From NCBI RefSeq assembly GCF_014647475.1, contig NZ_BMPG01000003.1:62001-126000 (forward strand): a stretch of DNA of 64,000 nucleotides, in the 5' to 3' direction. The translations under genes and the position numbers were made by a program. The stretch's first letter is position 1. Every line of letters starts with the position of its first letter. Below, piece after piece: positions 18,993 through 46,043 of the stretch. This DNA is from Halocalculus aciditolerans (GTDB lineage Archaea > Halobacteriota > Halobacteria > Halobacteriales > Halobacteriaceae). The notes beneath the pieces are model-generated. The model was not told where the DNA came from, ran no database searches, and saw only the letters and a list, made by a program, of their open reading frames with translations.

Positions 18993-19007
18993 GGATATCA
19001 GAGGGTC

Positions 19008-19043: not shown

Positions 19044-19097
19044 TGTGTCGGGATTCCCGCCCTCGATGACATACAACCAGCAAGCATTCGGCGTGTC

Positions 19098-19103: not shown

Positions 19104-19183
19104 TTGTGGGAGAGTGTGCTGTCCCGGTGTCTGCCAATTCTCTTGGCGAGAAATCCTGAAAAACCGGAGTCAGAGTCGGTGGA

Positions 19184-22828: not shown

Positions 22829-23390
22829 GTCCGATCACCCTTGCGCGGTAATATGTTCCTTCAGATTCATCGAGGAATCTTAAGCTCTTGTCATCGACTT
22901 TCGCCGGGTAGCAGAACACGATGGGCGTGTCGTCCGGTGTATTCGTCTCTAATTGACCCATGAGTGTGGAGGCACTGGCGAACGGGTACAGAATACCCAT
23001 CCGGTAGATAATCACCGTGTCAGCGTCTTCTGCAGCCGTTGCGATGGCGGACGCTAACTGCCCCATCTCGCCATCATCAAGAAGCGACGATTTCAGTCCG
23101 TCGAGTAAACGGTCTCGATCCCGACGTTCGAGATGGATCACGTTCTCCAAGATACCGCGGTCTTCGAGGATGCTGAAGACCAGTTCGCGCATATCGATTC
23201 CTGCGACGGTTTGGTCGTGGTAATCCAGTTTCTCGATGAGGTTTCGAACCTCTTCGTCGACTTCGATTTCGTCACCGGGGTCGTAGGTGAAGACGATGAA
23301 GGGGACCCCAGCGCGCTTTCCGACTTCGTCTCGATCATCTCTGACGAGTCGTTCTACTTCTTCGAGCCGTGCCTGAAAGTCAGAAAGCAT
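22821..23390 (-). CDS. brxB: BREX protein BrxB (DUF1788)
   Basis: A 189-residue protein matching the BrxB family in length and order: an N-terminal helix (FQARLEEVERLV), the PFIVFTYDPGDE strand, the RELVFSILEDRG helix and the GILYPFASASTLMGQLE segment, ending with IVFCYPAKVDDKSLRFLD. The function of BrxB is not known in detail; it is a core BREX component. Start ATG 23390 overlaps the brxA end by 11 bases. Confidence 0.92.
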   Translation of the reverse strand: MLSDFQARLEEVERLVRDDRDEVGKRAGVPFIVFTYDPGDEIEVDEEVRNLIEKLDYHDQTVAGIDMRELVFSILEDRGILENVIHLERRDRDRLLDGLKSSLLDDGEMGQLASAIATAAEDADTVIIYRMGILYPFASASTLMGQLETNTPDDTPIVFCYPAKVDDKSLRFLDESEGTYYRARVIGHE

Positions 23391-24192
23391 CTATTAGGTC
23401 CTCGATGCTGTCATGCTTTGTAATTAGTCGTTCTGTCGAGCCGCGCTTTTCGTAGCTCACATACTGCGGTGAGATGTCTCGAACCCGGCGCTGGACTTCC
23501 GATTCGTTCATCAGGAATAACTTCCAGTCGTCGTGTTCGATGACGTCTGATGCGGACTTCGCTCCCTTCTGAAAGAGCCGGTAGACGACGTACGCGACAG
23601 TCTCGTCGGGGACATAGGTGACGGCGAATTCCTTGCGTTGGGTGCCTTCTAGAAGCCCGTAGTTCCGGAGTGCGGTGAGGTACTTCGTGGCGGCTTCGTT
23701 GATCGTCGATTCGGACCGGTCACGCAGGTCGGCGTAGTCCTCTTGAATCGATTCGATGAACGTGACGATGTCCGTAGCTTGAACGGAGAGGGTTCCCCGT
23801 TCGAATTCAGGGTACAGGAAATCGAGGGTGACGAGGTGGATGAATGGATCTTGCGCGAATTCGTAGTAGAGACACCAGTCGGTTACGTCGCTCTGGACAT
23901 CAGCCGACATGATCTTCATCAGCGGTGTCTCTGTGTACTCCTCTTTATCAGGGATGTGGCGACGTGTAACCTCGCGGAGAATGTTTGTTCGATACTCGTC
24001 CGTATTCTTGTTCAGGATGTTCTCTTCGACGACCCGTCGCTCCAGTTCTTCGTACGACTCGCAATCGACATACGTGCGAAGGATGCGTTTCGTCTCGTCA
24101 ATGTACGTACTGTGATGGGCGATTTTCGGATCGAGACTCGCCGCCACGTCTGTTTCTTCGTCATCCTTGGGCTCGATATGCTCGTTACTCAT
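23380..24192 (-). CDS. brxA: BREX protein BrxA (DUF1819, NusB-like)
   Basis: A 270-residue, mostly helical protein of the BrxA family (DUF1819), which is a DNA-binding NusB-like fold in other BREX systems. Recognisable parts are the ETKRILRTYVDCESYEELE and ILREVTRRHIPDKEEY helices, DWCLYYEFAQDPFIHLVTLD, and a late winged-helix-like part (AATKYLTALRNYGLLEG). Slightly longer than the usual 200 or so because of an acidic N-terminus and a C-terminal tail. It follows the brxE-like gene after 9 bp. Confidence 0.9.
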   Translation of the reverse strand: MSNEHIEPKDDEETDVAASLDPKIAHHSTYIDETKRILRTYVDCESYEELERRVVEENILNKNTDEYRTNILREVTRRHIPDKEEYTETPLMKIMSADVQSDVTDWCLYYEFAQDPFIHLVTLDFLYPEFERGTLSVQATDIVTFIESIQEDYADLRDRSESTINEAATKYLTALRNYGLLEGTQRKEFAVTYVPDETVAYVVYRLFQKGAKSASDVIEHDDWKLFLMNESEVQRRVRDISPQYVSYEKRGSTERLITKHDSIEDLIDAF

Positions 24193-30357: not shown

Positions 30358-30462
30358 ATGCAAGAACGAATTCAGCCCTTTGAGGGCTGTCAAGCCACCG
30401 CTACTTGGGATGGACTGACGACAGAGACAGAAGAGGCTGTTTTAGCAGATCAGGAGGAATAA
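30358..30462 (+). CDS. Possible 34-residue acidic peptide
   Basis: ATG 30358 lies about 25 bases after GGTATAGAC, a box that is also placed correctly for the opposing gene at 30302. It encodes MQERIQPFEGCQATATWDG plus an acidic tail and overlaps the 3' end of the ATPase gene by 21 bases. Too short to judge; listed as tentative. Confidence 0.2.
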   Translation: MQERIQPFEGCQATATWDGLTTETEEAVLADQEE

Positions 30463-32118
30463 CCAGAATGGTAGATAGCAAATACTGCACTCGTCGTTTT
30501 CAACGACTAGTTCTTCATTTTCTCGTACGTCCTTTGGCAGGCTGTCGCTGATGATGAACCTGTATGGTGCGTTGTAGTCGAAGTCTCGGAGGTCTTCGCT
30601 ATCTGATTTGGTATGTTGGCCGGAGTCGGCGTCGAATTCTTCAGCGATTGGTTCGGCGTTACCCGTGTGTGGGTGGTAGGAGAGGATGAAGGGGAGGACG
30701 TGCCCGTCGCGCTGGAGGATGTAATCAACGAGGCCGGATTCGGTTTCCGTGTATTCGACATCGTATGCTCCAATAGTGAAGGCGAGGCGTTTGGCGTGGT
30801 CAAAGGCGACGGTGCGGGCGAGTTTGTATTCGAATTCGTGGTTGAGGGTGTCTTGTTGGTCGTGAACTTCGAAGCCGTGGTGTTCCTGCCGTTGGGAGAG
30901 AAGGACGAGATGGCGTGGATTGCGGAGATATAGGCGGGTGCGGCGGTGACGTCGCAGAGAGTAGTCCTGGGATTCGGTCACGGCGATGCCTTCGTCGAGA
31001 ACATCGAGGTAGCTATCGACGGTTCGTCTATCGACACCAATCTGGTCACTGAGGGCTGTGTACTGGAGTTCTTCACCGGCGTTCGTGGCGGCAATGGAAC
31101 TGAGTCGGTGGAGATTTTCGGGTTGTTGAATGGATCGGTACTTAGCGAGTTCCTTGTAGAGGAAGAGGAGGAAGTGTGATTTGGAGAGTTCGTTCCGGAT
31201 CGCTGGGTCGTCCGTTTGATGGAGGGTCCCGCCAGTGCGCAGGTATGCGCGCGCGGCGTCGTGAAGGTTATCTCGGTCGTCTGCGTTGAAAATGTCGAAG
31301 CAGAGCTCAGAGAGCGTCTCAATTGCCGTGTCGAGCGTGGTCTCGGGGTCCTTTCCGGACAGCCCAGTTCGAATCGTCTTGATTGGTGATGGCCCGTCTA
31401 AGTCGGGTGATTGGTACTGTTCGAGTCGGGTTCGGAATTCCTCGTCGAGATCGCCGCCGAGACCGGCGCCGATTTGAACGGTGTCAATGAATTTCATTGG
31501 GAGGATCGGCCATAGCTCGAATTCCTCGACGCTGTCAGCGGATTCGGTCGTGGAGAGATCCACTTGAGAGCCGACGATCCCGGTTAGGAATACGTAGGTG
31601 TTCTCGTCAACGATGTCGAGTAACTCCCCTTTCTCCTCGTCGTCGAGGGCGAGGGCTTGGACATCGTCGAGGAGGATGAACGTTCGTTCTTGGCGGGGTG
31701 CGACGTGCGTCTGGAAGTAGTCGATGACCTGTTTGAGACGGTTGATGTCGTCGCCTGCGCGTTCAAGCTGGTAGAGAGAGTCTTCTAGAGGAATGTAGAG
31801 GATTTGCCGCGGCTCGATTGCGGAGACGAGTTCAAGTTCTGTGTTTTGATGCGGGAAGTCGGTCGTGTTGAGGAGGGCTGCGACAAGTTGGTGAAGTAGT
31901 GTGGTTTTCCCGATTCCGGTCTGGCCGTGAATTGCGTAGACGAGGCTCTTGGTGTCGTCCGTGTAGTGGGTGTTCGTCGTTTTGAGAACGCGGTGGAAAT
32001 CAGATCGAGGGGTGAGGTCTGTGACTTGCGATAGTTCTGGAGATTCCCCGTTACTCCACCACTCGTTGTGGTATTCGGCGTCGTCGATGAACTCTTCTGC
32101 GCTCCCTGTCCCAAGCAT
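30442..32118 (-). CDS. AAA ATPase, DUF4143-like domain arrangement
   Basis: A 558-residue protein with Walker A AIHGQTGIGKTTLLHQLV near residue 62-79 and Walker B TFILLDDVQALAL near 145-158, then a winged helix (TALSDQIGVDRRTVDSYLDV) and a C-terminal domain with a LVDYILQRDG strand of the kind seen in the nuclease-like tail of AAA_14/DUF4143 proteins. Its ATG at 32118 is about 28 bases from the ATATAT box at 32144-32149, so probably leaderless. It diverges from the Argonaute operon across a 258-bp region. It could be a control or defence ATPase. Confidence 0.65.
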   Translation of the reverse strand: MLGTGSAEEFIDDAEYHNEWWSNGESPELSQVTDLTPRSDFHRVLKTTNTHYTDDTKSLVYAIHGQTGIGKTTLLHQLVAALLNTTDFPHQNTELELVSAIEPRQILYIPLEDSLYQLERAGDDINRLKQVIDYFQTHVAPRQERTFILLDDVQALALDDEEKGELLDIVDENTYVFLTGIVGSQVDLSTTESADSVEEFELWPILPMKFIDTVQIGAGLGGDLDEEFRTRLEQYQSPDLDGPSPIKTIRTGLSGKDPETTLDTAIETLSELCFDIFNADDRDNLHDAARAYLRTGGTLHQTDDPAIRNELSKSHFLLFLYKELAKYRSIQQPENLHRLSSIAATNAGEELQYTALSDQIGVDRRTVDSYLDVLDEGIAVTESQDYSLRRHRRTRLYLRNPRHLVLLSQRQEHHGFEVHDQQDTLNHEFEYKLARTVAFDHAKRLAFTIGAYDVEYTETESGLVDYILQRDGHVLPFILSYHPHTGNAEPIAEEFDADSGQHTKSDSEDLRDFDYNAPYRFIISDSLPKDVRENEELVVENDECSICYLPFWLFLLIC

Positions 32119-32143
32119 AGCGCTGATTATCGTGGCCTAGCAC

Positions 32144-32149
32144 ATATAT
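32144..32149 (-). promoter_or_regulatory. TATA-like box of the AAA ATPase gene
   Basis: ATATAT about 28 bases before ATG 32118, the normal spacing for a leaderless haloarchaeal gene. A palindrome (GCGGATTTCCGC, 32214-32225) and two copies of TTGTTGAAC (32185-32193 and 32226-32234) lie between it and the Argonaute promoter. Confidence 0.55.
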
Positions 32150-32329
32150 TCATGCATCTTGATGTCCCTATTTGTCTTCTGCTGTTGTTGAACTGTCTGT
32201 GAACCCTTGTGTGGCGGATTTCCGCTTGTTGAACCCGCTCGTGCCGGTCTCAAAGATAACTCTCTTACAGGACCAACGCGTGTTCTCTGAGTGTATTAGC
32301 GCTAAAATCTAGTTACCGTGTTTTGGATT

Positions 32330-32359
32330 CGCCTAGTGGAAACCTATTTATTCTAGGCG
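32330..32359 (+). promoter_or_regulatory. Argonaute promoter with inverted repeat around the TATA box
   Basis: CGCCTAG (32330-32336) and CTAGGCG (32353-32359) are a perfect 7-base inverted repeat with the TATA-like CTATTTAT (32344-32351) between them. ATG 32377 follows about 29 bases after the box. A protein bound to the repeat would block TBP, so this looks like a repressor site for the operon. Confidence 0.6.
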
Positions 32360-32376
32360 GGAGTTGGTTGGCGTAG

Positions 32377-35064
32377 ATGGCAGTGAAGGCCGATATCCAG
32401 GATGGGGAAGAGATCGACATCGCGCTGCTCGTCACGGGGATTGACGAGTGGAACCACGATGCCATCGCTCGGAAAATCCAACTGGAAGACGTCAACGGTG
32501 CAGGGGTAGACCTGACCGTATTCCACAACAATGACGTGGCGGACTTCGAGTGGCGGACCGGGGAGTGGTATCTCCTGGAGGACGTCGTCGGGAACGAATA
32601 CCGGGGTGAGATGCAACTTAACCCAGGGTACGACCTCACCGTCACGCGATTAAATGACCCGCCGGCCGCTGCTGAGAACAACACGTCCGCAAGTAATGAG
32701 GCCTCAGGAGCACCGGCAGAGCGGGCGGCAAGGCAGGAGGCGAATAGTGCGTCCACACCGGCTTCAACCGCGCCCGACGGTGAACGGTTCGTTCGCGGAC
32801 GCGAGGTCGATAGTAGTCCGCGCCCAACAGCCGATGGCGGTGGGGAACTCCTGCATCAACAGCCGCTCTCGGACGGGAACTACTTGCTACAGTTCGAACT
32901 CGGGGAACTGCCGGAGCTAACGGTCCACGAGTACGAACTCCAAGCGACCGAGAGTAGCGGGATCGATCCCGATGACTTCACAAACGGGATTCAGGGATTC
33001 ACGGCGAAAGCAGCGAACTACTACCAATCACGGATCAGGAGCCCCGTGACGACGGCCGATGCGTCCCGGCGGCGGATCTACGCGACTGAGAAACTCCACG
33101 ATACACTCTCAATTCACGGGTACACTGTCCAGCCGGTATACCAGGGTGACACGACGCTGGAAGCGCGCTCGTACACGGACGACGGCCCGCTACAAGAGTT
33201 CGTCAAGCAGGACGTGAAACGCGCCGTCACTGGCCGTTTCGAGGTATCGGGTATCGATTCAATCATCGAGCCCACGCCGCAGCGCACTGCGAACAGCGGG
33301 TTGTTCGAGGCATATCGGAAGTACAAGTGCCGAATTCGCGTCGACGCTGACGGAACCGTAATTTGCGGCGTGAACGTCTCATACCACCTAGAATCGACGT
33401 TCTCCGCCGCGGACTGGGTGCGACGTGGTCACGACATCGCCGAGGTGTCTGTTGAGCACGACACCGATCTGTACGATAGCCCCCGGACAGCGACCGTCAA
33501 GGAAGTCGTCGACATGGACTACGACGATGTACTCGATGGCCCGGGCGTCCCGATGTCGGAGTACCACAAGAAGCACGTCGAGCAGGACGTCATCGACTCG
33601 ATGCGGGCTGGCGACCCGATTATCGCCGATTTGCAGTACGGGAGCGGCGCGGATTCGATCTTCCCGCAGCTTCTGGAATACTGTAAGGTCATCCCAACGT
33701 TCGACCAACTGGGTCGCGTCGACGAGACGTTCCTGAACGTCATCCACAACGAGAGCCGGATGAAACCCGAAGAACGGTTCAACGTCGTCACGTCGTTCGT
33801 CGACCTGCTCGGCCCGACTCCCTACTTCGACTTCGATCCTGTCCCGCAGCCCACGAACGCCGGGTACCGAGAACACCAGATCCGGAACCGACCGAACCTG
33901 CGGTTCGGTGACGGACAGACAGGATTCTACGGGGCTGGTGGCCTGGAACGGAAGGGCTACGGCGTGTACAAGGCACCAGAGTCGTTCGACATCATCGCGT
34001 TGTCCCCTGAAGATGAAGCGGGTGACGCGCGGCCGTACGTCCTCTCACTGCTCAATAAGCTCGCGGAGTACGGTGCGAGTCCGACAGCGTTCGACCGCGA
34101 CACCTACGAACTCGGCTCGGAGTTCCACTACTCCTCGCACGCGCAGAAAGCGAGTGACTACGATGCCGCGCTGATCGTTGTGCCGGATGCAGATGAGGCT
34201 GCGGCAGCGGACTACGACGACCCGTATCCTGAGTTCAAGCGGCGGCTCGGGCAACTCGGCGTGCCGAGTCAGATGATCTCTGTCGACAATCTCGGCAACG
34301 ACAACTACCGTGGGAACATCTGCTCGTCCCTCATCGGGAAAGCAGGGGGTGTACCGTGGCGTATCGACGACGTTCCCGGGGGCGTTGACGCGTTCGTCGG
34401 TCTCGACGTAACGTACGACCACGCGACCAAGCAGCACCTTGGTGCGGCCGCGAACGTCATTATGGCTGACGGAACCATCCTCGCGTCCGAGGCCGTCACG
34501 AAGCAGTCTGGCGAGACGTTCGACGAGGACGACGTAGCGAACGTCATCAAGCACGTCCTGGAGATCTTCGCCGAAGAGGAAGGCCGACCGCCGCGACACG
34601 TGGTCATCCATCGGGACGGGAAGTTCTACCTCGACGTCGAGAGCCTCATCACCCGTCTCGACAAAGCCCGCGATCTCATCCAGCGGTTCGACCTCGTCGA
34701 GATCCGGAAATCCGGGAACCCCCGGATCGCCGAGTACGACGAATCGAACTCGCGGTTTGATATCGCGGACAAAGGCGTCGCCTTCCACGTCCACAATGGC
34801 GACCACTCTTACCTGACCACGACCGGCGGGAAGGAAGGCAGTCCAGGCACGCCGCGGCCACTGCAAATCGTGAAACGTCACGGATCGACCGACCTCGACA
34901 CGCTCGCGGAGCAGGCCTACTGGCTGTCGGAAGCGCACGTCGGGTCGCTGAGCCGCTCCACCCGGCTACCCATCACCACGTACTACGCCGACAAGTGCGC
35001 TGACTTCGCCATGAAAGGCTACCTCACCAAGGGAAGCGTCATTCGCGGTGTTCCGTATATCTGA
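32377..35064 (+). CDS. ago: Argonaute (PIWI protein) with N-terminal OB fold
   Basis: An 895-residue long Argonaute. Residues 1-95 read as an RPA-type OB fold (WNHDAIARKIQLEDV, WYLLEDVVGNEYRGEMQL), then an acidic Ala/Ser linker (about 97-150), and N/PAZ/MID-like regions. The PIWI tetrad can be placed: D677 in FVGLDVTYD, E713 in QSGETF, D747 in VVIHRDGKFY and D872 in ITTYYADK, all intact, so target cleavage is likely. The same plan is found in Natronobacterium gregoryi Argonaute, to which the motifs align well (IHRDG, LPITT.YAD, KGYL). It leads an operon with nuclease and helicase genes. Confidence 0.95.
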   Translation: MAVKADIQDGEEIDIALLVTGIDEWNHDAIARKIQLEDVNGAGVDLTVFHNNDVADFEWRTGEWYLLEDVVGNEYRGEMQLNPGYDLTVTRLNDPPAAAENNTSASNEASGAPAERAARQEANSASTPASTAPDGERFVRGREVDSSPRPTADGGGELLHQQPLSDGNYLLQFELGELPELTVHEYELQATESSGIDPDDFTNGIQGFTAKAANYYQSRIRSPVTTADASRRRIYATEKLHDTLSIHGYTVQPVYQGDTTLEARSYTDDGPLQEFVKQDVKRAVTGRFEVSGIDSIIEPTPQRTANSGLFEAYRKYKCRIRVDADGTVICGVNVSYHLESTFSAADWVRRGHDIAEVSVEHDTDLYDSPRTATVKEVVDMDYDDVLDGPGVPMSEYHKKHVEQDVIDSMRAGDPIIADLQYGSGADSIFPQLLEYCKVIPTFDQLGRVDETFLNVIHNESRMKPEERFNVVTSFVDLLGPTPYFDFDPVPQPTNAGYREHQIRNRPNLRFGDGQTGFYGAGGLERKGYGVYKAPESFDIIALSPEDEAGDARPYVLSLLNKLAEYGASPTAFDRDTYELGSEFHYSSHAQKASDYDAALIVVPDADEAAAADYDDPYPEFKRRLGQLGVPSQMISVDNLGNDNYRGNICSSLIGKAGGVPWRIDDVPGGVDAFVGLDVTYDHATKQHLGAAANVIMADGTILASEAVTKQSGETFDEDDVANVIKHVLEIFAEEEGRPPRHVVIHRDGKFYLDVESLITRLDKARDLIQRFDLVEIRKSGNPRIAEYDESNSRFDIADKGVAFHVHNGDHSYLTTTGGKEGSPGTPRPLQIVKRHGSTDLDTLAEQAYWLSEAHVGSLSRSTRLPITTYYADKCADFAMKGYLTKGSVIRGVPYI

Positions 35065-35118
35065 CCATACGCCAGTACAGGCTGACATATCCACTTTCAA
35101 CACACCGGTGACTTCCAC

Positions 35119-37239
35119 ATGACCAAAACAGAATTCGAAGCAACGGTCGAGTTCGACGACGGCAGCACCGCCGATCTGGAAATGGCTGCCGACAAATCGT
35201 GGAGTAGCTTCCTGAATTACTTCGGTGACGCCCAACACGTCTACTGCGTTACGTACAGTCAGTCCCCCGCGTTCATCTACAAGATGTTTCAGAACCGGGA
35301 CCTCGCAGTTGACTCACTGGAGGTTATCGTTGGAGACAACCAGCACGACGACTACCGGCGGTCGCTGAAGAACACGAACAACGCGAAGAAAATCGCCGCA
35401 CAGTTGGAGTCACTCCGTCGAGACGGTGATCTCCGCATCCAGACCATTGATTCTGCGCGTGTCCTTCTCCACACGAAGCTCTACATCGTCGAGAATCAGG
35501 ACGGGTCTCGTACACTCATCTGTGGGTCGGCGAACCTCTCCAAGCAGGCCTGGCAAGGAAGCAAACAAACCAACGTCAACATGGCGTGGCGTACTGACGG
35601 GGATACGCCCGTCGACGAGTGGTTCGAGCAGCTCTACGCGTTCCACAAGGACTACGCGACGCCGTTCATGGAAGACCTCACGGAGGAGATCGAAGACGCC
35701 GAAACGGCAGACGAAGAGGCGAAGATTTACGACATCTGGCTGGGCGGGGACGAGTTCAGTGACGACCCAGTCGCCGAGCTGAACGCCCGTCTTGACGAAG
35801 CGGTTGACGACGACCAAGTCAACACGTACAACGTCGTCACAGACGCCGAAGAAGCAGAGAAGGCTGTGGTTGCCGCCGAAGATACGGATACTGACCCAAC
35901 AGAGATCAGTCCGGACAAGCGTGTGCGCCTCTCTCCGCAGGGGCTTGAAGACGCTATCTCGAATCTGGACGACACGCTGTCCGCTAATAACATCCGTATC
36001 AACGACGGTGAAATCGTAGCGACGCCAGCCGGTATCGCACGGTACAAAGAAACCTTCACCGGATACCCGGACCTGAACGTCGACAGGGAGGAGAAGACGG
36101 TCGGGTTGCGGGTTGACGACTCGGTCCTCGAATTAACGGCTCCTCTTCCGGATGACCCGCAGGAAGTCGCTGACGCGCTCGACCTGATCGAAAACTACGT
36201 TGAAACAGTCGGTGAGTTCGGCGAAACACGGACCAAGAAGGAGACACGGGCACACTTCTACGAGGGGATTATCTACTTCTGCTGGGCTCCGTTCGCTAAC
36301 TACTGCGCCCATCACTACGCCGAATACGAATCCGCGGAGCTCGACAAGGACCTACCGTTCCTATTCCTTCACGGCGACAACGACAGCGGGAAAGGCATGT
36401 TCCTGCGGTTCGGAGCGCGACTCATCTCGAACGGGTACGTGCAGGAGGTCACAACCGGGGACGACTTCGTCAAAAACAATATCGAGCGTGCTCGTGCGTC
36501 CGACACAGTTTTCCCGTACATCGTTGACGACGTGGCGAAGTCGAAAATCGACCGGGACATCATCAAGTCGTATTGGGAAGGGAAGTGGGACGGTTCCATC
36601 CAAATGCCGACGTTCATCTTTTCCTCGAACGACTCAACCAAGCCCAAATCCGAACTCCGGACTCGCATGAAGACGTTGGATTTCAACGTGAACTTCTCCG
36701 AACTGGAGAAGGACGAACGCGAAGCCGCCGCGCAGATCGCAGGGCAGGCGGACGGCTGTAATCTGTTCGCGTGGTTCGCTCACCTATTCTTGCAGCGGGA
36801 TATCTCGCTCCCGGACCAGTCGGACCGGCTCGCGGATGCACGGGACGTGTTCGCAGAGTTGTACGCGTACGCCGAGAAGGAACCACCAGAGTACGTGCCG
36901 CTGGAGAAACCCGCCGAGCAGGAACACGACCCAGGGCGTCGGAAATGGATCAGCGCGCTATCCGACGGGTTGTGTGAACTCGATTTCAAAGACGATGGAC
37001 GCATCATCGCTGATTTCTCAGCGAATCTGGATCAACAGCAGTGCTGGGAGTTCCAGAAAGCCACGCCACCCCACATCCGGGCGAGTATTTACGGGCCGGC
37101 AGTCCAGTTTGAAAGCGCAAACAGGTTCCAGAATTGGATTGATGAACCCAGTATCATCGAAAACGCACGACGCGACACCGAAACAAGAGCTGACAACGAC
37201 GGTGTTCTGTCCCGGGTCACACGATTCGTCCGAGGGTAA
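35119..37239 (+). CDS. PLD-type nuclease fused to a P-loop ATPase
   Basis: A 706-residue two-part protein. The N-terminal part is a phospholipase-D-fold nuclease with one HKD motif: H118 and K120 in LLHTKLYIVE, D128, then CGSANLSKQAW. One motif per chain implies a dimer. After an acidic linker (about 190-290) comes an ATPase: Walker A LHGDNDSGKGMFLRF near residue 416-430, Walker B FPYIVDDVAKS near 468, sensor 1 PTFIFSSND; this resembles D5/SF3-type motors. The gap after ago is 54 bp with a possible CATATCC box; the next gene starts after 5 bp. It is probably the collateral or processing nuclease of the Argonaute system. Confidence 0.75.
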   Translation: MTKTEFEATVEFDDGSTADLEMAADKSWSSFLNYFGDAQHVYCVTYSQSPAFIYKMFQNRDLAVDSLEVIVGDNQHDDYRRSLKNTNNAKKIAAQLESLRRDGDLRIQTIDSARVLLHTKLYIVENQDGSRTLICGSANLSKQAWQGSKQTNVNMAWRTDGDTPVDEWFEQLYAFHKDYATPFMEDLTEEIEDAETADEEAKIYDIWLGGDEFSDDPVAELNARLDEAVDDDQVNTYNVVTDAEEAEKAVVAAEDTDTDPTEISPDKRVRLSPQGLEDAISNLDDTLSANNIRINDGEIVATPAGIARYKETFTGYPDLNVDREEKTVGLRVDDSVLELTAPLPDDPQEVADALDLIENYVETVGEFGETRTKKETRAHFYEGIIYFCWAPFANYCAHHYAEYESAELDKDLPFLFLHGDNDSGKGMFLRFGARLISNGYVQEVTTGDDFVKNNIERARASDTVFPYIVDDVAKSKIDRDIIKSYWEGKWDGSIQMPTFIFSSNDSTKPKSELRTRMKTLDFNVNFSELEKDEREAAAQIAGQADGCNLFAWFAHLFLQRDISLPDQSDRLADARDVFAELYAYAEKEPPEYVPLEKPAEQEHDPGRRKWISALSDGLCELDFKDDGRIIADFSANLDQQQCWEFQKATPPHIRASIYGPAVQFESANRFQNWIDEPSIIENARRDTETRADNDGVLSRVTRFVRG

Positions 37240-37244
37240 CAACC

Positions 37245-39305
37245 ATGTCTAATCACATATCTCCCCGGCAGTTCGATGGAACGTTAGTAACGGTACCATT
37301 CGGAAGCGAAAACGTCGAACGAACAGCGCAGAACGAATACCGGACGCTCCTCGACGAGCACGATTCTGAGGAGATACTCGTGATCACGGGTGCGCCGACG
37401 AGTACTGAAGCGTTCCGGGAGTCCTTAGACGCAGAACTACCCGGCGCGGCGACGCCGTGGGTGACGTCGCTCGTCGTGCACGCGACGGACGTACTCGACC
37501 AGACGGACGACCGTACCGTTCTCTCCGACGCCCTACGACGCGAACTCCTCCATCGGTTCCTCGACGGGTACGACTGGAACTCGGAGTATCTGGAGCGCGC
37601 GTCCGCACAGCCATCGTTCGTCGAGGACGCGGCGACCGTGATCGATACGCTCTCGTGGCAATCTTCCCACCCCGACGAGACGCCGGAGCTCCGCGATCTC
37701 CGACGCGCGTGTGATGCGTTCCACGACTGGCTCGCCGACCACGACCACATGGAGCGCGGCCAACTCATCTCGGAGGCGCACGAGGTCCTCGCGTCGGACG
37801 CACGCGGCGACGTCGTGGACGCGGAGGCGGTGCTGGCGGTTGAGTTCGAGGAGTTCTTCCCGGGTGACCGCGCGTACCTCGACGCGCTGGCGGCGGACCG
37901 CGAGCTGGTCTGCATCGCGGAGGAGAACGCGAGCGTGCGGCGGACGTGGATGGACCCCGGCCCCGTCACGGAGTACGTCTCATTCACCGAGACGCGACGC
38001 GGACACGCGGCGCCACCACCAGCGCGACCGGCCGCGACGGCGACGTACTTTGCGGAGGGAACGGCACCGGACGAGCCGGACGCGGGCTCCGTCTCCGTGC
38101 TCGCTACGGACTCACGCGACGACCAGCTCGATGCGGTCGCTAACGAGATCGAGGCGCTCGTCTCGCGGCCGGACTGGACGTACGAGGACGTCGCGGTCGC
38201 CACCAAGCAGAGCGGGAGTGCGGTGACGGACGCTATCGACGCGCTCGAACGCGCCGGGCTCCCGACGGAGTCGGCGACTGTCACGGGGTTCGGCGACGAT
38301 CCCGCGATCCGCGAGCTGCTCGCCGTCGTTCGACACCTCGCCGCCAACGAGGACGAGGAGCCGGTAGAGCACGGGCCGGAACTCGACGCGGATCGCGTGG
38401 AGCGCGTCGCGGCGTTCGACCGGCTCGACGACGGGGTTCGGTGGTGGGCGACCGACGCGGGGCTGAAGGAGCGGATCGCGGAGCGCGCGTCCCCGCTCGA
38501 TGCGCGTGCGCAGCTCGGGAACGTCCGTCGCGCGTTCCGGATGGCGGCGTTCCTCGAAGACACGGGCTTCCTGGAGGCGACGTGGGCGTCGTACGAGGAG
38601 ATGCTGGAACGCGCGCACGAGTACGCGCCGCAGCACAACCAGACGAGCGCGACGGACCTGAGTGGTGGCGTCCGCGTCGATCACGTGCAGGCGCTGAAGA
38701 ACGAGTCATATCGTGCGGTGTTTCTCGTGAATCTCACGGACGCCGAGTATCCCGGTGACCCGTCGTTCACGCGGCTCTTCCCGACTGAGCGCGTCGCGGC
38801 GATGCCGGACTACCCGGGCGTGACGGACCTTGACGCGGACGCAGTCGAAGCGACGTTCCCGACGGAGTCAACGGCGTCGAGTCGGCCGTTCGCGCGCTAT
38901 CATGCCGAGCACGCGCGCAGGCGGCTCGCTGTCGGTGCGGGCGTCGCAACGGAGCGGCTGTACTGTTGTCTCTACGAGTACGAGGACACGGCGCTCGAAG
39001 AGCGCGCGCAGGCCTCTCGCTTCCTGACGGCGGCGTACGACGCGCTCCCGTGGCTGCACGAGGCTGCCGACACTGGAATCACGAGCGAGCAGGCCGCCGA
39101 AGAGTATCTCCTCTCGCGGGTGGACGACGCGCTCGCGGAGGTCCGGCGCGCGAACAGTCAGGACGTGACGGTGTCGCTCGACGACATCGAGGCGGAACTT
39201 GGGGAGATTCAGGAGCTACTCGACGAGAGCGGGGCGCGCGGTGAGGAGGTACGGAAGGCGTTGCGTGCGCGCGTCGAGTTCGCCAACGGGGAGGTGCGGC
39301 GATGA
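37245..39305 (+). CDS. AddB-like inactivated helicase subunit
   Basis: A 686-residue protein. Near residue 475-500 it has VRVDHVQALKNESYRAVFLV then NLTDAEYPG, the degenerate form of UvrD motif V (the 'HkaKGlEf..V.l' element) seen in AddB/AdnA/RecC-type partners. Earlier VSVLATDSRDDQLDAVANEI matches the AddB 'aeaieI..l' segment. There is no Walker A, so ATPase activity is not expected; it is likely the structural subunit. G+C jumps to near 70 percent here. Its end overlaps the next start (ATGA). Confidence 0.65.
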   Translation: MSNHISPRQFDGTLVTVPFGSENVERTAQNEYRTLLDEHDSEEILVITGAPTSTEAFRESLDAELPGAATPWVTSLVVHATDVLDQTDDRTVLSDALRRELLHRFLDGYDWNSEYLERASAQPSFVEDAATVIDTLSWQSSHPDETPELRDLRRACDAFHDWLADHDHMERGQLISEAHEVLASDARGDVVDAEAVLAVEFEEFFPGDRAYLDALAADRELVCIAEENASVRRTWMDPGPVTEYVSFTETRRGHAAPPPARPAATATYFAEGTAPDEPDAGSVSVLATDSRDDQLDAVANEIEALVSRPDWTYEDVAVATKQSGSAVTDAIDALERAGLPTESATVTGFGDDPAIRELLAVVRHLAANEDEEPVEHGPELDADRVERVAAFDRLDDGVRWWATDAGLKERIAERASPLDARAQLGNVRRAFRMAAFLEDTGFLEATWASYEEMLERAHEYAPQHNQTSATDLSGGVRVDHVQALKNESYRAVFLVNLTDAEYPGDPSFTRLFPTERVAAMPDYPGVTDLDADAVEATFPTESTASSRPFARYHAEHARRRLAVGAGVATERLYCCLYEYEDTALEERAQASRFLTAAYDALPWLHEAADTGITSEQAAEEYLLSRVDDALAEVRRANSQDVTVSLDDIEAELGEIQELLDESGARGEEVRKALRARVEFANGEVRR

Positions 39306-40207
39306 GTGAACGCGCGCTTTCCCCATCGCGGTTGGCGACGTACGCGGCGTGCCCGCGGCAGTACGACTACGGCTACGTCCAAGATGTGACCACGCCCGAC
39401 CGCACGGAACTCTACCTCAACCAGGGGACGATTTACCACGAGACCATCGAGGACGTCTGTGACGCGACCGAACGCGACGACGACCCGGAGACAATTCACA
39501 ACCGAGCGATGCGGGTGTTCGACACGAAGTGGGACGAACACAGCAGTCCGGACGACTACGAGTCGAACGCGCACCGGGAGTACCAGCGTGCAGAGAACCG
39601 CGCCGCTATCGACGCGTTCTTCGACCCCGATGGCGGTGACGGCATCGAGCACGCGCGCCGGTCGGTCGCCACCGAGGTCTGGGTGGAATGCGAGATCGAC
39701 GGGCGCGCCCTCCACGGCAAAGCAGACAACGTGATCCGGACGGACAAGGGACTCCACGTCTTCGACTACAAGCGGAACACGCGCGGGGTGATATCCGGCC
39801 GAACGGCCGAGCGACTCTCCGACCATCTCGACGGTGAGGCCCACGAGCCCAAGCGCGCACGGAACGCGTTCCAGACGGCGACGTACGTCGAGGGCGTGAA
39901 GAACGAACCGTTCTACGAGGACGGGATGACGGTCCAGTTCAGCTTCTACGGCCTCCTCAACAGCACGTCGTTCGAGAGCACGCCCGACGGCTACGAGGTG
40001 TCCGCTCGCGGCTATCCCCGTGAGACGACAGACATCTACGCGGAGCACTACGACACGATTCGGGCGCTCATCCGGGAGGCACACGACGGGATCACGAGCG
40101 AGGCGTTCGCACCGGAGCCGTTCGACGTCATCGGCGAAGAGGCGTGCCCGGACTGCGACTACCGAGAGATGTGTCCCGACCGCCTCTCCACGGAGGTCCA
40201 GCAATGA
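39302..40207 (+). CDS. Cas4/RecB-like Fe-S PD-(D/E)XK nuclease
   Basis: A 301-residue nuclease of the Cas4/AddB-C type. C17 in AACPRQYDY and C282, C285 and C291 in ACPDCDYREMCP form the iron-sulfur staple. The nuclease core has TIYHETIED (His), LHGKADNVIR (Asp) and VFDYKRN (DxK). It probably completes the AddB-like protein as a separate nuclease subunit, since together they equal the domains of a full AddB. Both ends overlap with neighbouring genes by 4 bases, so expression is locked together. Confidence 0.8.
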   Translation: MSERALSPSRLATYAACPRQYDYGYVQDVTTPDRTELYLNQGTIYHETIEDVCDATERDDDPETIHNRAMRVFDTKWDEHSSPDDYESNAHREYQRAENRAAIDAFFDPDGGDGIEHARRSVATEVWVECEIDGRALHGKADNVIRTDKGLHVFDYKRNTRGVISGRTAERLSDHLDGEAHEPKRARNAFQTATYVEGVKNEPFYEDGMTVQFSFYGLLNSTSFESTPDGYEVSARGYPRETTDIYAEHYDTIRALIREAHDGITSEAFAPEPFDVIGEEACPDCDYREMCPDRLSTEVQQ

Positions 40208-43200
40208 ACGACGGTGACGTCGAGTACCCATCGTGGTACCCGACGCCGGAGGAGGACGTCTCGCCGGAGCCCCAACAGGAGACGATCATCGATTCGGACG
40301 CATATCCGATGCGCGTGCTCGCCGGCGCGGGCACCGGGAAGACGTTCACGATGGTTCGGAAGGTCGAGCACCTCATCGACGAGGAGGGCGTCTCGCCCGA
40401 CCGCATCCTCGCGTTGACGTTCACGAACAACGCGGCGGACTCGATGCGCGAGAAGCTCAACGCGAAACTCGGCACCGCCGGCTACGACATCGACGCCTAC
40501 ACCTACCACTCGATCTGCAACGAGATCCTCACCGACTACGCCTACGAAGCCGGGCTCGACCCGGACTTCGAAGTCGCCACCGACGCAGAAAAGTACGCCA
40601 TCGTGCTGGACGTCCTCGACGAGATCGAGTACCGCTCGGTCAAACCCAACGTGTACGGCTCTGACGGGTACGCGTCGGGCGCGGCGTCGAAGCTCCTCAA
40701 CTTCATCGGATCGATGAAGCGGAGCGGCATCACGCCCGACAAGATTGACGCGTTCCTCGGTCCCGCCGAGCGCGTCTACGACCTCGCGGAGCTCCCGGAG
40801 CGCATCGGAGCCATCGCCAGCGACCACCTCGGCGGCCAGTCCGTCTCCACGGTCGGAGCTTCGCTCCCGGACGTACGCGCCGACCTCGTCGCGGAACGCG
40901 ACGCGCTCGGCACAGAGGGGATCGAAGCGACCGCACGCGATTTCTTGGACCGGCTCGTGGAGCTCTGCGACGCGCTCGAAGCCGCGTTCGACGCGCACGA
41001 GGCCGGTGAGCGGGAACTCCCGGAGAACGCACACAAGCTCCCGAAGTACCTGTTCGGTGGATACGCGAGCGGCGCACCGACGGGTATCCCGGACGACCTC
41101 GACCTCGAACTCACGGACCATCTCGACTCGTTCCTCTCGGACTGCCTCACGGCCCGTGACTTGACGGCGGGGTACGCCGCGTACGAGCGTGAACTCGACG
41201 AGCGAAATCTCATCGACTTCGACGGCCTCGTCGTCGAGACGGCCGCGCTGATGGAGTCGCCGGTCGGCGACGAGATCGCCGAGCGCTGGGACTACGTCTT
41301 CTGCGACGAGTTCCAGGACACCGACCGCCTCCAGTTCGACCTCGTCACGTCGCTCGTCACCGACGACAACCTGTTCGTCGTCGGCGACGACGACCAGGCG
41401 ATCTACGAGTGGCGCGGCGCGCACGTCGCCAACATCACCGACGAACTCGACCGCGCGTTCACCGCGCTCGACGACGAACCCTTAGAGGAGAACTTCCGCT
41501 CCCGACAGCCGATCCTCGACCTGGCGAACGAAGCGATCCAGAAGCTCGATCACCGGGAACGCCACAAGACACTGACACGAGTCGACGAACCCGACTACGA
41601 CGGGGATACCGTCGCCACCGTCGAACTCCCTGCCGAGGACGACGATGCAGACGGGGCGGCCCAGTTCCGCACGGTCGTGCAGAACCTCCTGAGCGGCGAA
41701 GCGGAGAACCTCGATGCGGCGTACGATCCGGGCGACATCGCGCTCCTCGTCCGGAAGAACAAGCACGCCACGCCCATCATCGAGGAGTTCGAGGACGCGG
41801 GCATCCCGTACCAAGTAGCGGGTGATCTGGCCTCTGAATCGGTCGGCGTCGGCACCGTCACCGCCTACCTGAAAGCGCTCGCACGACCCGAGGACGAGGT
41901 GAGCTGGAACCGGGTCCTCCTGATGCGCTATCGGCTCTGTGACGCGGACCTCCGCACGCTCAATGCCGGTGACGAGCCGCTCGTCGACACACTGCGCGAA
42001 ACACCGCTTAAGGACTTCGAGGAGCCTGACCGCGTCGCAGAGGCCCGCGAGCACGTCACGGAACTTCTCGATATCCGGGATTCGGCGTCTCTCAGTCACC
42101 TGTACCGCGAGCTCACGGACATCACGAACATCGAGTGGTATCTCAGTGAGCAGGAACGCCGCGACCTCGCCCAGTTAGAGAACGTCATTGAACAGTACGG
42201 GGACAGTGCGGTCCAACCGCCGCTCACCCCGGAGTTCATCGACTCGCTCGACCACTACGATTCCCTCTTCGACGAGAGCGGTTCGACACCGACGAGTCAG
42301 CCGGATGTCGCCGACGATGCGGTCAACGTGATGACTATCCACAAGAGCAAGGGCCTAGACTTCCCGGTCGTCCTCGTCCCGCAAGTCACGGCCGACGAGT
42401 GGGCGCCAAGCTCACGAGCGTACGACGCGCTCGAAACCGGGCTCTCGGACGGCCCGGAGACGGCGTTCGCTGAGGACTTCGTCGAGCGTGACGCCCGTGA
42501 GACGCGACGCGTATTCCACGTCGGAATCACGCGCGCCGAAGACGTCCTCGTCTTGCAGGGCGGCAGTGAGGACGACGACGATGCCGCGGACGTACACCCG
42601 GTTACGGAGGCCGTCGACGAGATCATCCCGTCCAGTATTCCGTGGCAGCCTGAGCGCGGGCAACTACCGCTCTGGACTGACGTCCAAGAGTGTCTCCCCG
42701 ATGCTGCGGGAGACTGGACTGACACGCTGGCGAGCGAGACTGTCGGGCAGGTTGGTGGGACCGTCAATCACGACGGAGAGGAACTAACAGTCGAGACGGG
42801 GCGCGACCGCGTGCTAGCTCTCGCAACAGCCACCCTCAACGGGGATCTCTCCCCGAGAGCAGAGCGGGAGACACTCCACGTTGCGTCGCTGACCGGCCCA
42901 TCGACGCCAGCACCATCGATCTCGCACAGCTACACGTCGCTGGCAGCCTACGAGGAGTGCCCGCGGAGTCACTACCTGGACTACGTGGTCAACGCGTTCC
43001 CCGACTATCAGGAGCCTGCGGCCAAGAGCGATGCCGGGAGCGGTGTCTCACAACGTGACATCGGGTTGCTGTTTCACGACACCGCAGAGCAAGCCGCGAA
43101 CCAAGACGTGAAACAGCGTGAGGAGTGGTACGAGATCTGCGACCGTCTCGCCAGTCAGCGCCGCGTCGAGGACGCGCTCCCGGCCGCAAAACAGTGTATC

Positions 43201-43668
43201 GACCGGTACTTCGAGTTAGACCTTCCCAGTTACGAGATCGTTGACGCGGAGCGGGAGTTCGAACTCGATATCGACGGCCACGATCTCGTCGGGTACATCG
43301 ACGCCGTCTACCGGACGCCGGACGATGAGCTCGTCGTCATCGACTACAAGGCCACCGAACGGCACCGCGATTTGGACGACGACAAGCAGCTCCCGATCTA
43401 TCTGTTGGCGTGCCGTGACCTGTACGACGAGCCAGTGACGCGTGCTGGGTACGCGTACGTCGGCGAAATCGGGCCGAAGATCGAATCCCGAACGTTCAGC
43501 GATGATGACCTGGCGGCAGTCAGGGACGACGTGACGGCGTCGATGACCCGCATTGCCGAGTTCACGTTCGGTCGGTACACTGCTGGTGAGCACTGCCAGT
43601 GGTGCCAACACAACCAACTGACTTGTGCGCCGGGGTCGTTCACTGTCGGTCCTGGATTTGAGGAGTGA
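40204..43668 (+). CDS. UvrD/AddA-type helicase with C-terminal Fe-S nuclease domain
   Basis: A 1,154-residue SF1A helicase from ATG 40204 (an upstream start at 40144 only lengthens the overlap). Walker A is LAGAGTGKTFTM near residue 38-50, motif Ia LTFTNNAA, motif II FCDEFQDTD near 366, motif III VVGDDDQAIYEWRGA, motif V MTIHKSKGLDFPVVLVPQ, motif VI RVFHVGITRAED. From about 910 a RecB-like nuclease domain follows: ECPRSHYLDY, GYIDAVYRT, VVIDYKAT and a final C-x2-C-x6-C (HCQWCQHNQLTC), giving an Fe-S staple. This is a full DNA-end-resecting motor-nuclease. Confidence 0.9.
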   Translation: MNDGDVEYPSWYPTPEEDVSPEPQQETIIDSDAYPMRVLAGAGTGKTFTMVRKVEHLIDEEGVSPDRILALTFTNNAADSMREKLNAKLGTAGYDIDAYTYHSICNEILTDYAYEAGLDPDFEVATDAEKYAIVLDVLDEIEYRSVKPNVYGSDGYASGAASKLLNFIGSMKRSGITPDKIDAFLGPAERVYDLAELPERIGAIASDHLGGQSVSTVGASLPDVRADLVAERDALGTEGIEATARDFLDRLVELCDALEAAFDAHEAGERELPENAHKLPKYLFGGYASGAPTGIPDDLDLELTDHLDSFLSDCLTARDLTAGYAAYERELDERNLIDFDGLVVETAALMESPVGDEIAERWDYVFCDEFQDTDRLQFDLVTSLVTDDNLFVVGDDDQAIYEWRGAHVANITDELDRAFTALDDEPLEENFRSRQPILDLANEAIQKLDHRERHKTLTRVDEPDYDGDTVATVELPAEDDDADGAAQFRTVVQNLLSGEAENLDAAYDPGDIALLVRKNKHATPIIEEFEDAGIPYQVAGDLASESVGVGTVTAYLKALARPEDEVSWNRVLLMRYRLCDADLRTLNAGDEPLVDTLRETPLKDFEEPDRVAEAREHVTELLDIRDSASLSHLYRELTDITNIEWYLSEQERRDLAQLENVIEQYGDSAVQPPLTPEFIDSLDHYDSLFDESGSTPTSQPDVADDAVNVMTIHKSKGLDFPVVLVPQVTADEWAPSSRAYDALETGLSDGPETAFAEDFVERDARETRRVFHVGITRAEDVLVLQGGSEDDDDAADVHPVTEAVDEIIPSSIPWQPERGQLPLWTDVQECLPDAAGDWTDTLASETVGQVGGTVNHDGEELTVETGRDRVLALATATLNGDLSPRAERETLHVASLTGPSTPAPSISHSYTSLAAYEECPRSHYLDYVVNAFPDYQEPAAKSDAGSGVSQRDIGLLFHDTAEQAANQDVKQREEWYEICDRLASQRRVEDALPAAKQCIDRYFELDLPSYEIVDAEREFELDIDGHDLVGYIDAVYRTPDDELVVIDYKATERHRDLDDDKQLPIYLLACRDLYDEPVTRAGYAYVGEIGPKIESRTFSDDDLAAVRDDVTASMTRIAEFTFGRYTAGEHCQWCQHNQLTCAPGSFTVGPGFEE

Positions 43669-43796: not shown

Positions 43797-45188
43797 ATGA
43801 CCTTCTACGACCGGGAGGCGGAACTCGATACACTCACCGACGCGAGGGAGTCCCCTGGTTCGGACTTCATCGTCGTGTACGGGCGACGTCGCGTCGGGAA
43901 GACGGAGCTCCTCAAAGAGTTCTGTGCTGACCGTCCCCACATTTACTTCCTCGCCGCGCAGGAGGCCGAGCATAGACAGCGAGAGAAGTTCCTCGACCAG
44001 ATCGCAGGCCACTTCGACGAGCGCGTCCCGCGAATCGACGGGTGGGACGAGGCGTTCGAGTATCTCGGGGAGCAACTCCAGCAGGAGGATCTCGTCATCG
44101 TCATCGATGAGTTCCCGTATCTCGTTGCAGAGAACGATTCACTCCCGTCGTACGTGCAAGGGTTCGTCGACCAGGAGCTCGACGGGACGGATTCGATGCT
44201 CGTCCTCTGTGGGTCGAGCGTGAGTACGATGGAGTCAGAGATCCTGGGCCACGAGAGTCCACTGTACGGGCGACGAACGGCGCAGCTCGACGTGACGCCG
44301 TTTTCGTTTCGACAAGCCCGAGAGGTCATCTCGTACGACATCCAGGATGCGATTCGCTCGTATGCCGTCACGGGTGGTACCCCGATGTACCTCACGCTGT
44401 TCGACTACACGCAGTCGCTCGCGGCGAACATTCGGTCGCACGTGCTGTCACCGTCTGCGGTGCTGTACAACGAGCCGGAGTTCCTTCTGCGGACCGAGCT
44501 TCGGAACCCGGCGCGGTACATGAGCATTCTCGAAGCGGTCGCGCTCGGTCATACGACACCGAACGAGATCTCCGGCGCAACGGGGATTGACGCGGGACCT
44601 CTCTCGAAGTATCTCCAGACACTGCGCCGACTCAGGCTCATCGAGCGAGACGTCCCAGTCACGGCTTCGGGGAAGAAATCGAAGCGGTCGCGGTACCGGG
44701 TGGCCGACGAATTCCTTCGGTTCTGGTTTCGGTATGTCGAGCCGAATCGATCCAGTATCGAGGAGGCACCGGAGATCGTATACGACGGGACAATCCAGCC
44801 GGACCTCCCAACGCACGTCGCAACCACGTTCGAAGACGTGTGTCAAGAAGCCGTCTGGGAAGGGATTCGACGCGGCACGTTCGACACGTACTCGGAGGTT
44901 GGTCGCTGGTGGTACGGGGAGGAAGAGATCGACATCGTCGGGCTGGCACCGAACGAGGACCGAGTGCTCCTCGCCGAATGTAAGTGGACGACAGATCCAG
45001 TTGGGGAAGACCTCGTCGAGAGCCTCCGAGCGAAGGCCGAGCACGTCCGGTGGGGACCGGCTGACCGAGACGAACGGTTCGCCCTGTTCTCCAAAAGCGG
45101 GTTCGTCGACGGGCTCGAAGAACACCTCGACGACTCCTGGTCACTGCTCAGCGTAACGGATATCGACGATCTCCTCACGCCAGCGTGA
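43797..45188 (+). CDS. Archaeal ATPase with DUF234/nuclease-like C-terminus
   Basis: A 463-residue protein of the archaeal ATPase family: FYDREAELDTL, Walker A VVYGRRRVGKTELLKEF near residue 22-38, Walker B LVIVIDEFPYLV near 100-111, sensor SMLVLCGSS. Then a winged helix and a DUF234-type C-terminus with WYGEEEIDIVGLAPN and LLAECKWT, a PD-(D/E)XK-like D...ECK pattern. These genes are common in archaeal mobile regions. The gap to the helicase gene is 128 bp with its own promoter region, so it is probably separate from the Argonaute operon. Confidence 0.8.
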   Translation: MTFYDREAELDTLTDARESPGSDFIVVYGRRRVGKTELLKEFCADRPHIYFLAAQEAEHRQREKFLDQIAGHFDERVPRIDGWDEAFEYLGEQLQQEDLVIVIDEFPYLVAENDSLPSYVQGFVDQELDGTDSMLVLCGSSVSTMESEILGHESPLYGRRTAQLDVTPFSFRQAREVISYDIQDAIRSYAVTGGTPMYLTLFDYTQSLAANIRSHVLSPSAVLYNEPEFLLRTELRNPARYMSILEAVALGHTTPNEISGATGIDAGPLSKYLQTLRRLRLIERDVPVTASGKKSKRSRYRVADEFLRFWFRYVEPNRSSIEEAPEIVYDGTIQPDLPTHVATTFEDVCQEAVWEGIRRGTFDTYSEVGRWWYGEEEIDIVGLAPNEDRVLLAECKWTTDPVGEDLVESLRAKAEHVRWGPADRDERFALFSKSGFVDGLEEHLDDSWSLLSVTDIDDLLTPA

Positions 45189-45525
45189 GTGCGCCTGTCT
45201 CTAGGTCCTGGAGATCGTGTCGTTGAGTGTGTTGTGTGAGTGTCGTCTTCCATAGTCCGTACATCCTCGGCGATGTAGTGGGATTACGAAGGTTTCATCG
45301 AGGATGGCGGGGATTCCGGGTGGTGCGCGCGGTGTGGTGAGTGATTCACCGTCTTTTCGCGGGTGAAGAGGTACGTATATTGTCATGATATGCGATATGG
45401 TCGTACTGTCAGTCGGCTGCCCGTGCTGTCAGTCCGGATTTTGGCTTCTAACGGCCTGCCTCGGTAGAAATCAGGGTTTCCGAGGGCGAGGTTTTAAATA
45501 CAACTGGCGGTTGTGCCGGTGTGCA
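45189..45525. other. Intergenic region without a clear gene
   Basis: A 337-bp stretch. On the minus strand a 61-codon frame (45201-45386) is present but has no recognisable feature and I do not call it. The right end holds the promoter of the next gene (box at 45492-45500). Otherwise nothing stands out. Confidence 0.5.
45492..45500 (+). promoter_or_regulatory. TATA-like box
   Basis: TTTTAAATA, 26-30 bases before ATG 45526, the typical leaderless spacing; it decides the start of the following small gene. Confidence 0.6.
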
Positions 45526-45843
45526 ATGCAACGCGTCATCAACAGGAAACTGTACGATACCGACGAAGCCGAACAGATCGCACAACACGCTCCCAACACG
45601 GACCGAGGGGACTACCACTACCTCATCGAAACGCTGTACAAAACCTCGGATGAGGAGCCAGAGTACTTCCTCCACTGCGAGGGCGGTGCAGCAACCGAAT
45701 ACTCGGACCCGTACGAAGGCGGCCGGACCAGCGGAGAAGAACTCAACCTGGTCGATCCAGAGACCGCGCTAGACTGGTGCGAGGAACGCGCCATCGACGG
45801 CGAGATCATCGTCGAGGAATTCGGCGAGTTGATCGAAACGTAG
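45526..45843 (+). CDS. Small hypothetical protein
   Basis: A 105-residue acidic protein (MQRVINRKLYDTDEAEQIAQ at the start; YFLHCEGGAATEYSDPY in the middle; ALDWCEERA near the end). The pattern of a short N-terminal helix followed by strands with YFLHCEGG recalls small proteins linked to integrative elements in haloarchaea and bacteria, but I cannot name it. The start is set by the TATA-like box 30 bases upstream. A hairpin (CCACTC/GAGTGG at 45865-45879) after the stop might end transcription. Confidence 0.6.
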   Translation: MQRVINRKLYDTDEAEQIAQHAPNTDRGDYHYLIETLYKTSDEEPEYFLHCEGGAATEYSDPYEGGRTSGEELNLVDPETALDWCEERAIDGEIIVEEFGELIET

Positions 45844-46043
45844 TGCGAGCGGCTGCCTCGGAACCCACTCTCTGAGTGGTCGGCGTACTGCGGATCGTTC
45901 CCGCAGCGAGGTATATGGGAGACCCAGTAGAAAGCCCTCACCTTCACCGTCGAAGGCCGGGTTGCAATGTTCGTCGATATCCATCGACCTCTATCCCGTC
46001 CCTAGTAACGAGCGGCGGGATAGAACACTCTCCAGTCACTCCA

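Follow-up and report, generated by a model that had tools for sequence, protein, structure and literature searches.

A catalytic Argonaute encoded with a PLD nuclease, a split AddAB-like helicase-nuclease, and a divergent ATPase in haloarchaea

A 64,000-nucleotide stretch of the Halocalculus aciditolerans genome (contig NZ_BMPG01000003.1, positions 62,001 to 126,000, hereafter the window) was analyzed around an operon in which an Argonaute is encoded together with an AddAB-like helicase-nuclease. We refer to the operon's genes as gene 1 (Argonaute), gene 2 (PLD-ATPase), gene 3 (AddB-like), gene 4 (Fe-S, that is, iron-sulfur, nuclease), and gene 5 (UvrD-nuclease), and to genes 3 to 5 as the trio. 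The unit comprises the following features.

30442-32118, - strand: AAA_14/DUF4143 ATPase of 558 aa, divergent from the Argonaute (Pfam AAA_14, E = 1.9e-9; DUF4143, E = 7e-9)
32119-32376, no strand: divergent promoter spacer common to the ATPase and Argonaute genes (alignment of 13 loci and sequence)
32377-35064, + strand: long-A Argonaute with an N-terminal OB fold (Pfam Piwi, E = 9.5e-20; tetrad alignment; CbAgo 6qzk, E = 1.4e-78)
35119-37239, + strand: PLD nuclease with a fused P-loop ATPase region, a relative of AgaP (Pfam PLDc_2, E = 2.6e-7; alignments; structure-model matches)
37245-39305, + strand: AddB-like subunit corresponding to the N-terminal two thirds of AddB (AlphaFold2 model, Foldseek, profile match, motif check)
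39302-40207, + strand: Cas4/AddB-type Fe-S PD-(D/E)XK nuclease, equivalent to the C-terminal third of AddB on a gene of its own (PDDEXK_1, E = 3e-25; residues; gene 4 profile on fused AddBs)
40204-43668, + strand: AddA-like UvrD helicase with a C-terminal Fe-S PD-(D/E)XK nuclease (UvrD-helicase, E = 2.3e-60; PDDEXK_1, E = 3.6e-25; PDB matches; residues)

The five + strand genes are separated by 54, 5, -4, and -4 bp. All of these open reading frames, gaps, and overlaps had been placed correctly by an earlier note on this DNA, which described a five-gene make-up but overlooked the sixth gene of the unit, the ATPase gene at 30442-32118 on the - strand.

The Argonaute is catalytically complete, as had been claimed: D677, E713, D747, and D872 are invariant in an alignment of 11 haloarchaeal Argonautes. 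It scored 1081 bits against the PADLOC pAgo model, and its closest solved structures are CbAgo and CpAgo. No relatives were found in IMG/VR, and a viral origin was rejected on this ground. The description of gene 2 as a PLD nuclease fused to a P-loop ATPase also held, with a PLDc_2 domain and the conserved P-loop GDNDSGKG both present. Its PLD motif is compact, with GSxN ~16 residues after HxK. A structure model of the protein matched SauUSI and the NgoAVII R protein, and its profile had no significant match among PDB sequences; the predicted model of the ATPase half has a pTM of 0.59, and its class was not assigned with confidence.

Gene 3 has no Pfam match. An AlphaFold2 model built from a 31-sequence alignment (pLDDT 83) nevertheless folds like AddB, in agreement with the earlier note: its best Foldseek match in the PDB was Bacillus subtilis AddB (4cei_B, E = 5.8e-24, TMq 0.66), and the first PDB match of the gene 3 profile was AddB 3u44_B (E = 4e-9). 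A Walker A motif at the N-terminus was absent from every relative inspected; judging by this motif, gene 3 is probably ATPase-dead, as in RecC. Both Fe-S/PD-(D/E)XK sites of the AddAB layout are present, one in gene 4 (C17, C282, C285, and C291) and one at the C-terminus of gene 5 (C919, C1131, C1134, and C1141), each with a D..DxK motif and with four invariant or near-invariant cysteines; the AddB-type site lies on a separate gene. Gene 5 also contains the superfamily 1 helicase motor of an AddA subunit (UvrD-helicase and UvrD_C domains), matches PcrA, AdnB, and AddA in the PDB, and is the UvrD-type helicase with a second Fe-S nuclease domain that had been proposed. Gene 4 had been called Cas4-like. 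It is an Fe-S PDDEXK_1 nuclease but the counterpart of the AddB C-terminal nuclease rather than a CRISPR Cas4, which was rejected because gene 4 scored 31 bits against NCBIfam Cas4 TIGR00372 (cut-off 65) and matches the AddB C-terminus. In fused haloarchaeal AddBs, the gene 4 profile covers residues ~690-1015, starting about where a 686-residue protein would end. The gene 3 profile gave no match to these fused AddBs in direct sequence comparison, so the split-AddB identity rests on fold, lengths, and gene 4. On these grounds, genes 3 and 4 together make up a single AddB divided over two genes, and the whole trio amounts to a split AddAB that carries two Fe-S nucleases.

Distribution of the unit was analyzed in 391 Halobacteria genomes, with counts taken from tblastn and genome-search coordinates since open reading frame calling overlooked some start sites and genes (among them the ATPase in locus L100). 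The AddB-like protein was found in 140 genomes. The Argonaute search matched 83, and a long Argonaute was counted in 52. The clade of the window's Argonaute (84-90% identical) occurs in 15 genomes, including one truncated and one decayed copy. In 15 of 15, PLD and a close trio lie immediately downstream in the same order (in genome G261 the locus is spread over two contigs). The usual junctions are 63, 5, -4, and -4 bp, with a first gap of 61-64 bp in relatives and 54 bp in the window; exceptions are L066 (PLD broken), L068 (198 bp before AddB), and L075 (Argonaute decayed). Almost every locus has 5 bp between PLD and the trio, so a separate trio promoter would need to sit inside the PLD gene. 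Beyond these 15 genomes, four further species have the unit, one on a plasmid, which brings the total to about 19 species from several families. Among them are Halorussus marinus, Halocatena pleomorpha (PLD broken), Halorubrum sp. 48-1-W, Haloferax profundi, Natribaculum breve, Halogeometricum limi, Halostella pelagica, Natronosalvus hydrolyticus, Halosimplex salinum, H. pelagicum, Natronomonas gomsonensis, and Salinigranum marinum (plasmid). The proposed pairing of a catalytic Argonaute with an AddAB-like machine is thus a conserved unit with near-constant junctions. In a wider phylum sample, only weak AddB-profile matches (about 38 bits or less) were found beyond haloarchaea.

The AAA_14/DUF4143 ATPase gene is divergent from the Argonaute gene in all intact loci and is gone from the loci with a truncated or decayed Argonaute (L074 and L075). 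The 391 genomes encode 34 ATPase relatives at >= ~50% identity, whose neighborhoods were judged from match coordinates and fetched loci. Thirteen lie with Argonaute, PLD, and split AddAB; seven with Argonaute (mostly also PLD) but without AddAB in the sequence fetched around them; nine with a split AddAB of the ~60% group described below and no Argonaute (AddB is truncated in G064); two with fused AddAB and no Argonaute (L190 and L191); one with a superfamily 1 helicase and an OB-exonuclease-like fragment (L192); and two with neither Argonaute nor AddAB. Close ATPase relatives therefore adjoin almost only Argonaute, AddAB, or both, and these neighborhoods link Argonaute and AddAB through a third partner. 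The divergent spacer is 255-260 bp in all complete loci. On the Argonaute side it carries a TATA-like box, CTATTTATT, flanked by a CGCCTAG...CTAGGCG inverted repeat (window 32331-32359) that is largely conserved in relatives and is a possible candidate operator. TATA-like elements are conserved on both spacer sides in the 13-locus alignment, as is CTAGTnnAAA on both sides in relatives. Loci L190 and L191 show a one-strand run without Argonaute (fused AddB, AddA, DUF4143 ATPase, a 711-aa protein, and a metallo-beta-lactamase), possibly a separate AddAB-centered system.

The unit is a real, conserved variant of APAP, a system of Natrinema pellirubrum composed of a long-A prokaryotic Argonaute (pAgo) and the PLD protein AgaP (Cheng et al. 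2024, PMC11442185). The earlier note knew of no described system with this make-up, which does not hold for the Argonaute-PLD half: this is published APAP, and Cheng et al. mention, in a single sentence, a neighboring helicase at some loci, with no mention of AddB, the nuclease, or the ATPase (PMC11442185). In APAP, plasmid restriction depends mainly on the PLD protein, and restriction of a single-stranded DNA virus mainly on the Argonaute (PMC11442185); suppression of AgaP toxicity by the Argonaute counts among the traits that define the system. The window likewise has a long-A pAgo with intact DEDX and an adjacent PLD gene in one operon, its first gap and those of its relatives fall within the usual 31-64 bp, and gene 2 aligns over its full length with the N. 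pellirubrum protein. Identity is ~34-37% for the Argonaute and ~33% for PLD. HxK and GSxN are ~50 residues apart in N. pellirubrum AgaP and close homologs, whereas they are compact in the window; because this split motif is lacking, we call the window system APAP-like. The N. pellirubrum locus (L124/L186) encodes a divergent ATPase (62% identical), a metallo-beta-lactamase protein, Argonaute, and PLD. The ATPase is a new candidate for a component of APAP as published.

Compared with B. subtilis AddAB (4cei), the trio has the same dual-nuclease layout, with the AddB fold in gene 3, the AddB-type Fe-S nuclease in gene 4, and the helicase-nuclease in gene 5. Unlike the bacterial enzyme, the window version has AddB split over two genes and no Walker A in AddB, it is archaeal, accessory, and encoded with an Argonaute, and its gene 5 is closer in sequence to UvrD/PcrA than to AddA. 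Gene 5 has the same domain make-up as UvrD-Cas4 fusions, which are reported to be defense-linked in bacteria and mesophilic archaea, in the contexts of type III restriction-modification and Dcm loci ("Phylogenomics of Cas4 family nucleases," Makarova group, 2017, PMC5704561); the word Argonaute is absent from the main text of that paper. UvrD, Cas4, and PLD orthogroups are each listed singly as enriched near pAgos in "The Expanded Universe of Prokaryotic Argonaute Proteins" (2018, PMC6299218), where AddAB is not mentioned and no description of a one-operon trio was found. In open-access text, neither the AddB subunit, the split AddAB, and the ATPase nor the loci with OB-exonuclease or fused AddAB were found described, although some of these may be shown in Figure 1B of Cheng et al.

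AddAB also adjoins Argonautes in other arrangements. Six genomes have a fused AddB (with C-terminal PDDEXK_1) and AddA beside an Argonaute: Halobaculum litoreum has PLD-Ago-AddB-AddA on one strand, Halomarina oriensis and G099 have AddB-AddA-Ago on one strand, G123 has a looser version, and in G354 and G073 the fused AddAB is convergent with the Argonaute. A more distant, ~60% trio group lies largely on plasmids and retains ATPase, trio, and PLD while lacking an Argonaute; in its place is a 375-aa protein that combines an Argonaute-like OB fold with a PolB-like DEDD exonuclease (DIET, FD, YxxxD). In two Halosimplex species, a ~59% AddB-Cas4-UvrD trio, Argonaute, and PLD occur together with the OB-exonuclease on the other strand. 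Overall, 21 of about 50 long Argonautes examined had AddAB within roughly 9 kb, where chance would predict well under one; this expectation is a rough estimate from AddB-match density, and the 15 members of the clade are not independent. Recurrence of the unit in about 19 species with near-identical junctions suggests that certain Argonautes are equipped with a DNA-end processor of their own.

The OB-fold DEDD exonuclease recurs beside Argonaute and/or AddAB (L097:14378-15505, L152:8736-9872, and L170:3325-4335, all on the - strand) and is a candidate new Argonaute partner. Another Argonaute group has an MrfA-like DEAD/MZB helicase and an MrfB-like RNase_H_2 exonuclease as neighbors (L180:4379-11278, - strand, and L170:4430-11177), with the genes on the same strand in L180. 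In Halorubrum salsamenti (L126:1682-11322, - strand, identical to L155), a calcineurin-like phosphoesterase and an SMC-like coiled-coil protein come after Argonaute-PLD; relatives of these two, which form an Mre11/Rad50-like pair, also stand ahead of a distant AddAB trio (L110, L112, and L115).

Anatomy, intact motifs, gene order, junctions, recurrence, inheritance as a unit, and ATPase linkage are observed features of these loci, from which we infer a role for AddAB in feeding guides or clearing targets. The reading that we consider just probable is a six-gene haloarchaeal DNA-defense unit (APAP pair, split AddAB, and divergent ATPase) in which AddAB feeds the Argonaute. The AddAB-like machine would load on free ends of foreign DNA, such as linear viral genomes, broken plasmids, or stalled forks, and would unwind and chop it into single-stranded fragments. 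The OB-fold Argonaute may take these fragments as guides or be delivered to them as targets, and the guided Argonaute and PLD nuclease would cut and destroy matching DNA. Each cut would offer AddAB new ends in a feed-forward loop. RecBCD shapes the guides of SeAgo, LrAgo, and CbAgo, and TtAgo co-purifies with AddAB (PMC10269773); CbAgo is the closest solved relative of the window Argonaute. Across 14 complete loci, UvrD distances correlate with those of the Argonaute (Mantel rho 0.70, p 0.0005) and of the ATPase (rho 0.75).

Several observations weigh against this reading. The earlier note had held that the link would be a chance neighborhood if trio relatives occurred mostly without Argonaute and PLD, and roughly 125 of 140 genomes indeed have the trio without such an Argonaute alongside; the reverse association is strong, however, with the trio beside clade Argonautes in 19 of 20 cases, the exception being Halobacteriales archaeon YIM A00013 (L150), which has an intact, 79% identical clade Argonaute without partners. 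Chance neighborhood was rejected for the Argonaute clade on conserved order and junctions, with functional independence kept as a rival. Trios with and without Argonaute are intermixed on the AddB tree (nine changes, at least six forced), and five trios without Argonaute have a PLD 3' remnant directly upstream; on this evidence, Argonaute and PLD were lost repeatedly while the trio stayed intact. The same 14 loci show weak correlations of Argonaute with AddB (rho 0.38) and Cas4 (rho 0.21). Divergence is unusually high in the window's AddB-Cas4 stretch (about 37.3-40.4 kb), and the closest branch to its AddB on the tree is the sister protein of Halarchaeum acidiphilum (support 100/100); this suggests that the stretch was exchanged while the operon around it stayed fixed. 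Published N. pellirubrum APAP protects with no AddAB in the ~20 kb examined, and E. coli RecBCD alters the patterns of guides, yet their loading does not depend on it (PMC10269773).

Because the trio outlives the Argonaute, it must have its own function, and it is an autonomous module that the Argonaute joins and that also works without it. The main rival, which strikes us as rather unlikely, is that Argonaute and PLD cut first with guides from elsewhere and AddAB only degrades the resulting linear DNA and blocks repair. AddAB-type enzymes are strong exonucleases on linear DNA, and both nuclease sites are intact by motif. That APAP works without AddAB in its locus implies that guides can arise otherwise, and the trio's integrity after Argonaute-PLD loss fits as well, yet clearing alone explains neither why the trio persists without Argonaute nor why several Argonaute groups each adjoin a different helicase-nuclease. 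It is improbable that Argonaute-PLD-ATPase and the trio merely travel together in a defense island with a promoter in common and no mechanistic coupling. Such independence would account for trio relatives mostly lacking Argonaute and for the forced changes on the AddB tree, and BREX is also in the window's island; against it stand the near-constant 5-bp junction and gene order across many genera, an ATPase specific to both halves, and the repeated pairing of Argonaute with fused AddAB. A housekeeping role, in replication finishing, double-strand break repair, or decatenation as proposed for TtAgo and SeAgo, draws on AddAB being a repair enzyme and on its co-purification with TtAgo. This we consider very improbable given the patchy accessory distribution, plasmid presence, decay, and defense-island neighbors of the unit and the restriction of plasmid and virus by published APAP.

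A further, tentative reading is a modular haloarchaeal defense family, with a core of AddAB-type helicase-nuclease, AAA/DUF4143 ATPase, and PLD into which OB-fold RNase-H-like nucleases (Argonaute, DEDD exonuclease, or both) are plugged to handle its single strands. If so, the products of AddAB would go to interchangeable receivers, of which Argonaute is one, and guide biogenesis would have genes dedicated to it. The unit bears on how catalytic Argonautes of prokaryotes acquire their DNA guides and distinguish foreign from own DNA, a matter in which bacterial housekeeping RecBCD/AddAB has been implicated so far only by guide patterns and co-purification; here, AddAB is in the Argonaute's own operon. 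Natural variants with Argonaute, without it, with the OB-exonuclease, and with fused AddAB exist, which opens the guide question to gene deletion in culturable haloarchaea and makes the unit a good system for studying guide biogenesis.

Other genes surround the unit in the window. The BREX genes BrxA, BrxB, BrxC, PglX, PglZ, and BrxL form a one-strand run upstream of it (10388-24192, - strand), and GC content is only 43% at 16-18 kb, within the PglX gene, compared with 54-60% around it. After the operon, 43797-48359 encodes an archaeal ATPase (PDC-S27-like, DUF234), a 105-aa protein, and an Eco57I-type methyltransferase. The PDC-S27-like ATPase, or the 105-aa protein with the methyltransferase, recurs downstream of several complete loci, partly decayed.

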